Positions 1 through 5,894 of a DNA stretch of 6,428 bases are shown here, piece after piece; position 1 is the stretch's first letter, and every line of letters begins with the position of its first letter. The stretch spans positions 1 through 6,428 of the forward strand of contig JARDZO010000301.1 of assembly GCA_029240815.1 (NCBI GenBank), given 5' to 3'. The notes beneath the pieces were generated by a model. The model did no database searches and had not been told where the DNA came from. It saw nothing but the letters and a program-made list of their open reading frames with translations. The translations under genes and the position numbers were made by a program. This stretch comes from Brevibacillus sp. GTDB lineage: Bacteria > Bacillota > Bacilli > Brevibacillales > Brevibacillaceae.

Positions 1-135
1 CAGGACGATCTGCTCCCCTTGAACGAAAACTTCCACCGGATCGCCTTCTTTAATTCCAAGCGTCCTCCGCAATTCTTTCGGAAGAACAATCCGACCAAGC
101 TCGTCAATTCGTCTCACAATGCCTGTTGCTTTCAT
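1..135 (-). CDS. AbrB/SpoVT-family transcriptional regulator (partial, N-terminal 45 residues)
   Basis: The gene starts with ATG at 135 and runs off the left edge, so only 45 codons are visible. They read MKATGIVRRIDELGRIVLPK, then ELRRTLGIKEGDPVEV. This is the swapped-hairpin DNA-binding fold of the AbrB/SpoVT family: the pattern R-x-(I/V)-D-x-L-G-R-(I/V)-x-(I/L)-P-K-E-(L/I)-R is nearly complete. Such proteins bind AT-rich DNA as dimers or tetramers and act as transition-state or phage-encoded regulators. An AAGGAGGA ribosome site lies at 147-154, 11 bases before the ATG and immediately after the stop codon of the 58-aa gene upstream, so the two are co-transcribed. The C-terminal half is outside the window, so AbrB, Abh, SpoVT or a shorter phage homologue cannot be told apart. 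The family call is firm; the regulatory target is unknown. Confidence 0.88.
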   Translation of the reverse strand, partial: MKATGIVRRIDELGRIVLPKELRRTLGIKEGDPVEVFVQGEQIVL

Positions 136-156: not shown

Positions 157-333
157 TTAGTTGTCTTCCGCGCTTACTTTCTTGGCGCCGATCCCCTCGG
201 CCAGATGCTGCAACGTGCAATACACGTCACAGCCGAACTTCCAAACCTTCTCACCGGGGTAAATCGGCTGCTGACAGCTGTTGAGCGCACACTCGTCGAT
301 TTGCTCATACGTCTCACCATTTTTCGGAAACAT
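157..333 (-). CDS. Small cysteine-cluster protein, possible zinc-binding phage protein (58 aa)
   Basis: A 58-codon gene with ATG at 333 and TAA at 157-159. An AAGGAGG ribosome site at 339-345 is spaced 5 bases from the start. The protein begins MFPKNGETYEQIDECALNSC and carries Cys15, Cys20, Cys35 and Cys39, with His42 close behind. The layout Cys-x4-Cys, 14 residues, Cys-x3-Cys-x2-His resembles the small zinc-ribbon or treble-clef proteins common in phage early regions, where a 'C..C..PIY.GE..' segment precedes a second Cys pair. It sits between the 50-aa gene and the AbrB-like gene in the leftward operon, and its stop codon abuts the next ribosome site. Metal binding is inferred from the cysteine spacing. 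No specific function is recognised. Confidence 0.75.
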   Translation of the reverse strand: MFPKNGETYEQIDECALNSCQQPIYPGEKVWKFGCDVYCTLQHLAEGIGAKKVSAEDN

Positions 334-401: not shown

Positions 402-554
402 TTAGCTGCCCTGGCCGGCGGCTTTTTCGTTTTCCCCATAAAATACTTCGTAGTCCTCGACTGCATCCCCGATCGAAATCACCCGGGCTTCGTCCTGGCG
501 ATCGCCGTCACAAGCATCGGCAATCCATTTAACCGTTTGCTGAGCCTCGCGCAT
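402..554 (-). CDS. Small acidic protein of unknown function (50 aa)
   Basis: The start is placed at ATG 554 because a near-perfect ribosome site (AAGGAGGTGA, 563-572) lies 8 bases before it. The open frame extends further upstream to a TTG at 590, but that start has no ribosome site and would put the AAGGAGGTGA inside the coding region. The protein begins MREAQQTVKWIADACDG and is rich in Asp and Glu; no membrane segment, HTH or metal motif is visible. It follows the Spo11-like gene, whose stop codon overlaps the ribosome site, so both are in one leftward transcript. About 68 bases without a clear promoter separate it from the next gene. I do not recognise the family; it is probably one of the small phage early proteins. 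Confidence 0.65.
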   Translation of the reverse strand: MREAQQTVKWIADACDGDRQDEARVISIGDAVEDYEVFYGENEKAAGQGS

Positions 555-562
555 CTGCTGTA

Positions 563-572
563 TCACCTCCTT
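563..572 (-). promoter_or_regulatory. Strong ribosome binding site that decides the start of the 50-aa gene
   Basis: On the minus strand AAGGAGGTGA lies 8 bases before the ATG at 554 and overlaps the TAA stop (571-573) of the Spo11-like gene. This is close to the full anti-16S complement and argues for the ATG at 554 rather than the TTG at 590. Confidence 0.8.
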
Positions 573-1461
573 AACCATACTTTTCTTCAATCTCTGACCA
601 ATTCGTTGCGGCAGCTCGCAGAGTCACTTTTGCTGATTCCTCTCGCTCTTTCGCCGCTTCAAAGGCTTCCAAGTCGCAATATTGGAGCACTTTCTCCCGA
701 ATCAGATCTTCGATGACTTCAGGTTTCAAAGCGTCCAGTTCCCAGCACTCATGGCCAAATTCTTCGATATATTTGGTTGCACGGCTGTCGGTAAGTTTCG
801 TCGGATTCGGCGGCGGGCTGTACTGCTCGATCTGATTGAAATTTAAGGCGATTCGTTCAAACTCCACGCTTACCCCGAACAATTCAAGTCGGTCTACGAT
901 ATCCCGGCTCATGTCTTTGCCACTTGGATCATGGTCGCCAAGGTGGATAATGTGAATTTCCTTCTGCCCGGCTACATCTTCGAGCCGTTGCGCCGCACTC
1001 CACATTTCGGATTGGCTGACGTAGCCACGGCAGCTAAAGTACGGTACATCGAGTTTCTCGCATATCTGACCGACTATGCCAACGAGAGCATCCTTCTCGA
1101 CCCATACCTCGACGTAGTTGTCCTGGTCCTCCCATTTGTCGATCGCATAGCTGTAGGCAGCCGAGTGGATAATGCTTCCCGGTGAAGACCAATGGCTGTT
1201 TTTCCGAAGATTTCGCGTCCGGTCTTCTATGGCGTCCCAGTCAATAAGCCCGGACATCCGGCCGTCTGAAATTAGATTTCCGAGGTTCTTATAAGACCGC
1301 TCATTGTTTGGAATCACGTCCCGAGCCACAAGCTGATAATATACCTGCCGGAGCGTGAGGCTGTACCCTTTCGCCTGGTATTCGGCGATTATCCCGTTGA
1401 CGCGTTCGATTAACCGTAAGCTTTCTGGTCGAAAGTTAATTTCCCGGTAGCAGATTTTCAT
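571..1461 (-). CDS. Spo11/topoisomerase VI subunit A-like Toprim protein (phage)
   Basis: A 296-aa protein. Residues 36-48 (TLRQVYYQLVARD) resemble the winged-helix motif that carries the DNA-cleaving tyrosine in Spo11 and TopoVI-A; Tyr41 or Tyr42 would be the nucleophile. Residues 117-190 look like a Toprim fold: VEVWVEKDAL supplies Glu122, matching the TopoVI-A 'VEK' motif, and LGDHDPSGKD supplies Asp176 and Asp178 in the DxDPxG arrangement that binds magnesium. The C-terminal end (about 260-290) is charged and helical, possibly coiled. At 296 residues it is shorter than typical TopoVI-A (about 360-390) and no ATPase B subunit is visible in the window, so it resembles stand-alone 'mini-A' proteins. 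ATG 1461 follows a GGGGGAGGG site 10 bases upstream. Role inferred: making or processing DNA breaks in phage replication or recombination. A Toprim nuclease without topoisomerase activity is the alternative. Confidence 0.72.
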   Translation of the reverse strand: MKICYREINFRPESLRLIERVNGIIAEYQAKGYSLTLRQVYYQLVARDVIPNNERSYKNLGNLISDGRMSGLIDWDAIEDRTRNLRKNSHWSSPGSIIHSAAYSYAIDKWEDQDNYVEVWVEKDALVGIVGQICEKLDVPYFSCRGYVSQSEMWSAAQRLEDVAGQKEIHIIHLGDHDPSGKDMSRDIVDRLELFGVSVEFERIALNFNQIEQYSPPPNPTKLTDSRATKYIEEFGHECWELDALKPEVIEDLIREKVLQYCDLEAFEAAKEREESAKVTLRAAATNWSEIEEKYG

Positions 1462-1482: not shown

Positions 1483-1710
1483 TCAATACAGCTTCATAAC
1501 CTTGTCGTACTCAGGCATCAGCTGCTCGAACCATGCCCAGTCCCTCGTTTGCCTGGCCAAGTGGAGTTTGTTCAAAACTGCCGCGTATCGCCACTCCCGG
1601 TACACAATAAACTTGTGCGACTCGCGCAGCTCGTGAGCCTCCGTTGGGGTTAGCTCCCGTTCAAACATGACGCCTACGATCTCCAGCAGCCGCTTGTCGA
1701 CGGTGCTCAT
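1483..1710 (-). CDS. Small helical phage protein of unknown function (75 aa)
   Basis: The ATG at 1710 overlaps the TGA of the excisionase-like gene (ATGA, 1707-1710), so translation is probably coupled; its own ribosome site is weak. The protein begins MSTVDKRLLEIVGVMFEREL and continues with a TPTEAHELRESHKFIV segment, then a Trp- and Tyr-rich stretch (YREWRYAAVLNKL) and a C-terminal WFEQLMPEYDKV helix. The pattern (short N-terminal helix, 'LT..E..EL', aromatic middle helix) reminds me of small proteins annotated only as domains of unknown function in Paenibacillus and Brevibacillus phages (a DUF7667-like pattern, from memory and unverified). The gene lies 21 bases upstream of the Spo11-like gene. 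No catalytic or metal motif is visible and no function is assigned. Confidence 0.78.
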   Translation of the reverse strand: MSTVDKRLLEIVGVMFERELTPTEAHELRESHKFIVYREWRYAAVLNKLHLARQTRDWAWFEQLMPEYDKVMKLY

Positions 1711-2009
1711 TTGGCAGCACCCGCATAGTTTTCTGCTTCTCGATCCTTAATCCATTTGTCCAAGCTGCTGGAACTGAATAGGTAACGCGGGTTTCTGCTT
1801 CCGTCAGATCCAACCGTCCGATAAGGAACTTTCTTAGTACGACAAAGATTCCGGAGTGTGTAATCACTCATTCCCAGGTAGTCACAAGCTTCTTGAAATG
1901 TCAGCGTTACATCGGACTGGACGTTCAAACTTTCACGAATCCGACGTTCTGCTGCGGCGACTTCCTCGACAATGATGGCTCGAATGGCGGCTTCGATTGA
2001 AACGTTCAT
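1707..2009 (-). CDS. Excisionase/MerR-like helix-turn-helix protein (100 aa)
   Basis: Residues 36-89 form a compact winged HTH of the excisionase (HTH_17) type. LTFQEACDYLGMSDYTLRNL is the HTH, followed by CRTKKVPYRTVG and a wing that ends with RYLFSSSSLDKWIKDRE. Residues 1-34 are a predicted amphipathic helix rich in Ala and Glu, which could mediate dimerisation. ATG 2009 overlaps the stop of the Rha-like gene by 4 bases (2006-2009), and the stop overlaps the next ATG by 4 bases, so it is tightly coupled. It could be a recombination directionality factor (Xis) for the integrase at 4453-5736, or a transcription factor of the early operon. Fold and DNA binding are well supported; the Xis role is only inferred, since Xis genes are often closer to int. 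Confidence 0.8.
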   Translation of the reverse strand: MNVSIEAAIRAIIVEEVAAAERRIRESLNVQSDVTLTFQEACDYLGMSDYTLRNLCRTKKVPYRTVGSDGSRNPRYLFSSSSLDKWIKDREAENYAGAAK

Positions 2010-2785
2010 GACGCTACACCGTCCATATCAACTTTGTTTTGAATCGCCATTTCTTTCACGATTGCAAAATAAATCTCTGTGAGTCTGCTGTCATCGAAAA
2101 TAACGTCGATCTTACTTACCTTGTCGATCTTGGATTTCGCAACACCTTCCAGCGCCATCTTCTTGCGCTTGTTGGTCTGCCGGATCGAAAGATTGCAGTC
2201 GGCTCTGCTCTCTAAACGTTGGTAGCTATCTGAGCGAACATCTTGGTACGAACTCCCGCCGCCAAGCTGCTGAGCGATCTTGTTCAAAAGTGCTGTAACC
2301 TTTTTCCGGCCGTCGATCGTATTTAGGCTCATGATCTCTACCGCGTCGTCGAATTTCTTTTCGACCGCCGAAAGCCGTTTTGCTTGTTCGGCCTGTTCAC
2401 GTTCGATATTGACCAGGTGAGCGATCGAAGCCTGCAAGATTTCGAGCTGTGTTTGCGGCGACTTGGATTGCTCCCTTTCCATTTCCTCAAAACGAGTAAC
2501 ATATGCTGCGGTGAACAAAACGCCTTTTTCTCCGGTCATCTTATTTGCTACCATGTCGCAGCCTTTTCGGGTGAGCAGGTAGCATGGTTTAACCCGATTT
2601 AGGTTGTCTTGATAGGTGCTTTCAATGAAGAAATCAGATGAACGGAATTCTCCGTTTAACAAATACTGGATATACCCCTTAATCTTTTCAAGAAGATCGG
2701 AATGGCGAACATCGGTCATTTCAGCAACGTTTCGGCTATCTACGAGAAGTTGACCGCTTTGATTGACGATTTGCAAGTGGGCCAA
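2006..2785 (-). CDS. Rha-family phage regulatory/anti-repressor protein with ORF6C-like C-terminus
   Basis: A 259-aa protein that starts at TTG 2785, behind GGAGGGG a few bases upstream. Residues about 12-102 match the Rha (pRha) domain: LVDSRNVAEMTDVRHSDLLE, the RSSDFFIESTY segment, the YLLTRKGCDMVANKMTGEKG signature, and FTAAYVTRFEEME. Residues about 110-150 look like a coiled-coil linker. Residues about 158-245 (GRKKVTALLNKIAQQLGGGS onward) resemble the ORF6C domain found at the C-terminus of many phage anti-repressors. Rha proteins are phage DNA-binding regulators, and Rha-ORF6C fusions are typical early anti-repressor-type proteins. The gene is second in the leftward operon, with an 87-base gap after the Cro-like gene that holds a possible internal promoter. 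Its stop overlaps the next gene by 4 bases. Domain call is strong for Rha and moderate for ORF6C. Confidence 0.85.
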   Translation of the reverse strand: MAHLQIVNQSGQLLVDSRNVAEMTDVRHSDLLEKIKGYIQYLLNGEFRSSDFFIESTYQDNLNRVKPCYLLTRKGCDMVANKMTGEKGVLFTAAYVTRFEEMEREQSKSPQTQLEILQASIAHLVNIEREQAEQAKRLSAVEKKFDDAVEIMSLNTIDGRKKVTALLNKIAQQLGGGSSYQDVRSDSYQRLESRADCNLSIRQTNKRKKMALEGVAKSKIDKVSKIDVIFDDSRLTEIYFAIVKEMAIQNKVDMDGVAS

Positions 2786-3145: not shown

Positions 3146-3173
3146 TGACTGGTCCTCCTTTCCTTTTGTTTTG

Positions 3174-3235
3174 TTTAGATTACGTACTCAGTATATTCGT
3201 AATCTAAATAAACGTCAAGGGTTATTTTAGATTAC
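3174..3235. promoter_or_regulatory. Operator array: three TTTAGATTAC sites in the divergent repressor/Cro control region
   Basis: TTTAGATTACG at 3174-3184 and its exact reverse complement CGTAATCTAAA at 3198-3208 form a perfect inverted repeat with 11-bp arms and a 13-base spacer. A third copy, TTTAGATTAC, lies at 3226-3235, just before the repressor's ribosome site. The middle copy sits in the spacer of the leftward promoter, so binding would block RNA polymerase; the third may give autoregulation. The array is the natural target of the double-HTH repressor and/or the Cro-like protein. Confidence 0.78.
3190..3218 (-). promoter_or_regulatory. Main leftward early promoter (Cro-like operon)
   Basis: On the minus strand TTGACG (3213-3218), a 17-base spacer and TATACT (3190-3195) make a strong sigma-A promoter. 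The spacer contains the operator copy at 3198-3208. Transcription should start near 3183, giving a leader of about 38 bases before the ATG at 3145. The rightward repressor promoter is less clear: TATATT at 3192-3197 overlaps this -10, with only a weak TTGTTT at 3171-3176 ahead of it at short spacing. Confidence 0.75.
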
Positions 3236-5812: not shown

Positions 5813-5865
5813 TGCCGAGGACGAGACTCGAACTCGTACGGGGTTGCCCCCGCAGGATTTTAAGT
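5813..5865 (-). other. attP core: 3' half of tRNA-Leu(UAA), no 5' half
   Basis: Read on the minus strand, this is the 3' half of a class II leucine tRNA. The anticodon loop CTTAAAA (5858-5864) has anticodon TAA (5860-5862). It is followed by a GGGG-GCAA-CCCC variable arm, a perfect T arm (ACGAG, loop TTCGAGT, CTCGT; 5821-5837), the acceptor strand CCTCGGC and discriminator A (5813). CCA is not encoded: GTA follows. Upstream of the anticodon loop the bases do not pair to form the anticodon stem and no D arm or 5' acceptor strand exists, so this is not a functional tRNA gene. It is the phage attachment core, with identity likely from the anticodon loop to the tRNA end. The crossover point inside it cannot be placed. 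Confidence 0.8.
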
Positions 5866-5894
5866 CACATTCAACGCACTATGCATATACTTGC

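Follow-up and report, generated by a model that had tools for sequence, protein, structure and literature searches.

A Mini-A protein, a stand-alone relative of Top6A and Spo11, encoded in the early region of a temperate phage

Stand-alone proteins resembling Top6A, the A subunit of topoisomerase VI, and Spo11 occur in phages and plasmids and have already been named as a family, Mini-A, whose founding study is given as Takahashi et al. 2020 in passages of PMC7614492, PMC8185306, PMC8084294 and PMC11302465. A passage of PMC8084294 describes what they do as unknown and supposes that they help to maintain and spread plasmids. Spo11 itself likely evolved from the topoisomerase VI A subunit, according to a passage of PMC12203943. 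Here we describe a Mini-A gene in a stretch of 6,428 nucleotides from Brevibacillus sp. (contig JARDZO010000301.1), hereafter the window. By its Pfam and PHROG matches the window covers the early region of a temperate phage, whose host is read as a Paenibacillus-like bacterium, and it corresponds to positions 5694-12121 of a 29,074-base virus record, a partial record of the phage. An earlier note on this DNA, made from the letters alone and giving no strand, had seen at 571..1461 a Spo11/TopoVI-A-like protein in a phage early operon. The open reading frame lies on the minus strand, as do all codons and domains given below, and has an ATG start and 296 codons; stops are abundant in the plus-strand reading of the same interval. 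We propose, at a probability of roughly 55%, that its product is a homodimeric, metal-dependent tyrosine transesterase that cuts phage DNA for replication or recombination, a dimer, a chemistry and a role that we infer.

The window protein is an ordinary Mini-A member. PHROG 6247, named 'DNA topoisomerase', matches its residues 1-294 at 6.7e-115 and was matched by 15/15 records tested, and residues 10-275 are 47.8% identical to the protein of Pseudomonas phage NP1, which a figure legend of PMC7614492 uses as its Mini-A example. Identity is 32.1% to a protein of an archaeal plasmid that bears the annotation Topo Mini-A. With the rest of the family it shares size, a winged helix and a Toprim domain in one chain, location on a phage or plasmid and the lack of any B subunit found, and no feature was found that sets it apart. 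Its own location on a mobile element is seen from the integrase and repressor in the same window of the virus record, and the family, one of stand-alone A-type proteins on mobile elements such as the earlier note alluded to, already had its name. Relatives are numerous, with E <= 0.001 for at least 8000 candidates of a protein search (8000/8000 of those scored); tblastn found relatives in 71 records out of 50,697 from phages and 48 out of 72,556 from plasmids. The window protein received no family from Pfam, NCBIfam (best E 0.11) or PADLOC, a single-sequence search of the PDB returned only seven rows of CCA-adding enzyme at E of about 0.3, and a profile search of the PDB returned no rows. Among 23 relatives, Pfam TP6A_N is matched in four (best 0.036), the Top6A-Spo11 Toprim model in one (best 0.0092) and DUF2399, weakly, in five, with no DUF2399 match for the window protein; some homologues bear the database names DUF2399 or Wadjet JetD C-terminal domain. 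We found no reports of Mini-A assays in a literature search whose coverage left out most subscription journals.

The active site of Methanosarcina mazei Top6A is described, in a passage of PMC13040014, as Y106, E202, D254 and D256 together with an R102/E342 clasp, and the Top6A of a Methanosarcina metagenome-assembled genome, 369 amino acids long against 296 in the window protein, has R102, Y106 and E342 at the same numbers. In the window protein, residues 36-48 (TLRQVYYQLVARD) contain R38-x-V40-Y41-Y42, the R-x-V-Y-Y motif picked out in the earlier note, and Glu122 in VEK and Asp176 and Asp178 in DHDPSG are likewise where it had placed them. Across 379 homologue rows, which are not de-duplicated, include 310 proteins found by shared words and count the window's own protein as P0001, the predicted metal ligand Glu122 (codon 1096..1098) and both acidic residues of the predicted DxD metal site (Asp176-His177-Asp178, codons 928..936) are kept in all 379. 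R38 is Arg in 376, and the predicted nucleophile Tyr42 (codon 1336..1338) is Tyr in 377, the exceptions, P0180 and P0310, being fragments without that region. Its neighbour Tyr41 is Phe in 113 of 120 actinobacterial rows, Tyr in only 34 of 70 archaeal-query rows and replaced by Phe or Trp in 5 of 68 locus rows. As Y41 varies and Y42 is constant, only Y42 behaves like a catalytic tyrosine, which rules out the two acting as a pair; of the tyrosine pair whose conservation the earlier note had wished to see, Tyr42 stood and Tyr41 did not. The search patterns for viral loci contain parts of the catalytic motifs, so that counts over 63 rows lean towards conservation, and those for genome contigs contain no catalytic residues. 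Rows L020 (broken match) and L056 (stop codon) were dropped, as were L021 and L023, which are pieces of the window's own record.

These residues can be set on Top6A. In hhalign, R38/Y42 pair with R102/Y106, E122 with E202 and D176/D178 with D254/D256, at probabilities that are low to middling (31.7% and 80.3%, and 8.4% for the actinobacterial set). An ungapped profile scan over the whole of Top6A places the Y42-Y106 register clearly best (10.6, next 2.5) and the D176-D254 register best by a small margin (4.3, next 3.3), with E122-E202 outside the top four. From 30 Top6A loci, 11 read as reversed and also L132 and L148 were removed, leaving 17 in use. A hydrolytic Toprim nuclease that leaves the tyrosine unused would have to accommodate both the invariance of Tyr42 in 377 rows next to a variable Tyr41 and a spacing of R38 to Tyr42 equal to that of R102 to Tyr106 in Top6A, and we regard it as very improbable.

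Both halves of an A subunit, which to the earlier note seemed present within 296 residues, are predicted: a winged helix bearing the tyrosine (residues 11-82, 1216..1431) and a Toprim domain (residues 115-261, 679..1119). The architecture is that of a truncated Top6A, the two domains lying in one short chain, with a weak sequence link to Top6A. Top6A ranks first for each predicted domain, by small margins over unrelated folds; in the Toprim ranking a JetD-like structure is tied with it in Z, and OLD is absent from the rows listed. A structure matching a different Toprim family without a winged helix, which the earlier note had named as speaking against its reading, was not obtained, a winged helix being predicted and ranking Top6A first. 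Foldseek searches of the PDB, with the whole model or the N-domain model, left no match at E <= 0.001; M. mazei Top6A was second for the whole model (8.6e-3), behind a designed Rossmann protein, and Top6A entries stood at ranks 10 and 15 (E 3-4) for the N-domain. A viral structure library searched at E <= 0.001 left two rows, one for a packaging ATPase at TM 0.17, the other for an unnamed protein of 152 residues. The PHROG match, the fold rankings and the residue conservation support the predicted kinship of the window protein with Top6A and Spo11 that had been claimed for it.

Top6A shares with the window protein the predicted fold of both domains and the R-x-x-x-Y and E...DxD residues, so that the predicted catalytic tyrosine in a winged helix and the E...DxD Toprim of topoisomerase VI are in place, but neither of the Pfam models TP6A_N and Top6A-Toprim picks up the window protein, and no Top6B was found. 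Topoisomerase VI is an A2B2 enzyme whose B subunit carries a GHKL ATPase, and none was found in 12 records, namely nine complete phage genomes, two plasmids and the window phage's partial 29,074-base record. The Top6B transducer (PF09239) was matched in 0 of the 12 (positive controls, 4 of 14 genomes), with the limit that divergent Top6B-like partners would escape this profile, and HATPase_c_3 (PF13589) likewise in 0 of the 12 (positive controls, 14 of 14 genomes). The absence of a B subunit from the window, already remarked in the earlier note, thus extends to the 29,074-base record and to 11 other phage and plasmid records, and a B subunit elsewhere in the window phage is rejected on two negative profile searches of its partial record. 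Topoisomerase VIII resembles Mini-A in its type IIB kinship and its occurrence on mobile elements (passages of PMC8185306 and PMC7614492), but it carries an ATPase part, mostly in one chain, whereas the window protein has 296 amino acids and no Pfam ATPase match and no HATPase_c_3 was found in the 12 records. Spo11 differs in its meiotic setting, the window protein coming from a phage with no Top6B-like partner found, and JetD/MksG of Wadjet (MksBEFG) differs in that PADLOC returned 0 families and no SMC-type match was seen among the neighbours scanned. As a separate observation, four genomes (G015, G025, G035 and G045) have, beside a normal Top6A, open frames of 428-444 amino acids with a second match to Top6A-Toprim, less strong than the first (E 1e-24 to 1e-26), which perhaps encode another type IIB protein.

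The same fold and active-site evidence, and the name of the PHROG family, would also fit a reversible, ATP-independent topoisomerase that uses the same tyrosine chemistry and reseals the phage DNA, relaxing supercoils or unlinking replicating molecules. Since the 12 records yielded neither an ATPase subunit nor a GHKL domain, the strand-passage machinery of topoisomerase VI is missing, and we consider such an enzyme possible but rather unlikely.

In the transesterase model that we prefer, two Mini-A copies would pair such that Tyr42 in the winged helix of one copy comes to lie opposite the Toprim metal site of the other, formed by Glu122, Asp176 and Asp178. The dimer would cut both strands of bent DNA, with the 5' ends remaining joined to Mini-A through Tyr42, as with Top6A and Spo11, and cleavage would run without an ATPase subunit, an independence of ATP that we also infer. 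Passages of two papers on SPO11 bear on this model: the mouse protein breaks DNA in vitro without a partner (PMC11922746), which suggests that an A-type dimer alone can suffice, and SPO11 requires dimerisation and metal (PMC11922745), which together with its partner independence makes Spo11-like cleavage by Mini-A plausible. The breaks would be used in replicating or recombining the DNA of the phage itself, a role made likely by the early operon, in which genes for an exonuclease-like DUF2800 protein and for a family A polymerase follow further on.

This operon is read here as starting with a Rha/antirepressor-like protein (2006..2785; PF09669 7e-24, phrog_373 1.1e-58), followed on the same minus strand by an HTH_17, excisionase- or regulator-like protein (1707..2009; PF12728 4.9e-11, phrog_66 5e-08), a DUF7667 protein directly upstream of Mini-A (1483..1710; PF24704 1.6e-06, 28.7 bits at a cut-off of 27) and Mini-A itself. 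Directly downstream is a small open reading frame (402..590) whose start overlaps the Mini-A end and which has no match in Pfam or PHROG; another (157..333) has a sub-threshold Pfam match only, and the start of a gene for a MazE/AbrB-like DNA-binding protein occupies 1..135, all minus strand. A Cro-like helix-turn-helix protein is encoded on this strand as well, ahead of Rha/antirepressor in the gene list, and the plus strand carries a repressor with two helix-turn-helix domains, an ImmA/IrrE-like protease and a tyrosine integrase. Beyond the window the same strand encodes the DUF2800 PD-(D/E)XK protein, the family A DNA polymerase and an AAA ATPase, and the genes in the opposite arm of the phage record resemble, by eye, those for lysis, tail and head. 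The phage early operon of the earlier note is borne out, and early expression of the Mini-A operon would be expected. Between the divergent repressor and Cro-like genes, at 3170-3235, lie two overlapping inverted repeats with core GTAATCTAAA, likely operators. Past the integrase, 5815-5870 resembles by eye the 3' part of a tRNA gene and is on that account a possible attachment site; a scan of the window with ARAGORN gave no tRNA.

Over 105 Mini-A loci the largest neighbour clusters are helix-turn-helix-like by eye (19), SNF2-type helicases (16) and integrase-like by eye (16), followed by polymerase A (11) and DUF2800 (8); a 9-locus family without Pfam match is taken for VRR-NUC. A fixed partner gene for Mini-A is rejected, the largest shared cluster reaching only 19 of the 105. 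Adjacent same-strand genes, kept within 400 bases, overlap Mini-A or lie at most 30 bases away in 84 of 113 cases. After removal of 5 of 79 viral loci as near-duplicates and then of 10 of the 113 genes as short, PHROG tallies over 103 adjacent genes gave as the largest named ones, among the matches listed (25 of 131 families), helix-turn-helix regulators (7), the DNA helicase phrog_62 (5), RusA resolvase (4) and Erf annealing protein (2), with which Pfam agrees; as there was no random control, these neighbour counts describe setting, not enrichment. The Mini-A of NP1 has as neighbours a ligase, a Sak4-like annealing protein, a Cas4 exonuclease and a helicase. A weapon that breaks host, competing phage or plasmid DNA would sit poorly with the recurrence of Mini-A beside helicases, RusA and Erf proteins, with an operon shared with the phage's own replication genes and with the lack of PADLOC family matches, and appears improbable.

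A further idea concerns Glu241 (codon 739..741). This position is Glu in 120 of 121 Bacillota-type, 68 of 70 archaeal-query and 67 of 68 locus rows, and Gln in 117 of 120 actinobacterial rows, from which a set of 20 (A5) was chosen; hhalign nevertheless places the actinobacterial set within the one family, at 100%. A clade of actinobacterial relatives that contains Streptomyces combines Phe41 with Gln241, and phage-type rows mostly have Tyr and Glu. Changing Glu342 to Gln makes M. mazei Top6 prone to cut, according to a passage of PMC13040014, and, if position 241 corresponds to Top6A Glu342, the Gln241 clade would be a naturally unrestrained, ATPase-free DNA breaker. The correspondence is a motif-level guess, from ELDAL in the window protein beside EQQAF in Top6A, or EQDAL in L133 and L143. 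An ungapped scan of four segments never placed the Glu241-Glu342 register in the top five, nor did the reverse scan, and the two residues were left unpaired when hhalign was applied to the C-terminal part. Two regulatory types of Mini-A, with such an unrestrained Gln241 clade and with the family as a prokaryotic Spo11, appear improbable; if true, Mini-A would make programmed breaks at which phages and plasmids recombine.

Outside phages, Streptomyces accounts for 39 of the 48 plasmid records in which a Mini-A relative was found (L029 and 38 others), those listed being about 26-30% identical. A small, circular plasmid of Paenibacillus durus (L027, 15,151 bases) encodes a Mini-A 69.6% identical together with an ATPase that has a Zot domain, as found in filamentous phages, and may therefore be a phage-like element. 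A circular archaeal plasmid of 8,776 bases (L024) carries Mini-A with 15 other annotated genes, all hypothetical bar one zinc-finger protein. The interruptions in L056 (8001-8879) and L020 (1326-1822) suggest that some Mini-A copies are decaying.

A-only relatives of Top6A are common in phages and plasmids, as Mini-A shows, and to this the window Mini-A adds a strictly conserved active site and ATPase searches without a match. If Mini-A cuts alone, it would serve as a simple model for the passage from a topoisomerase core to a nuclease that makes breaks.
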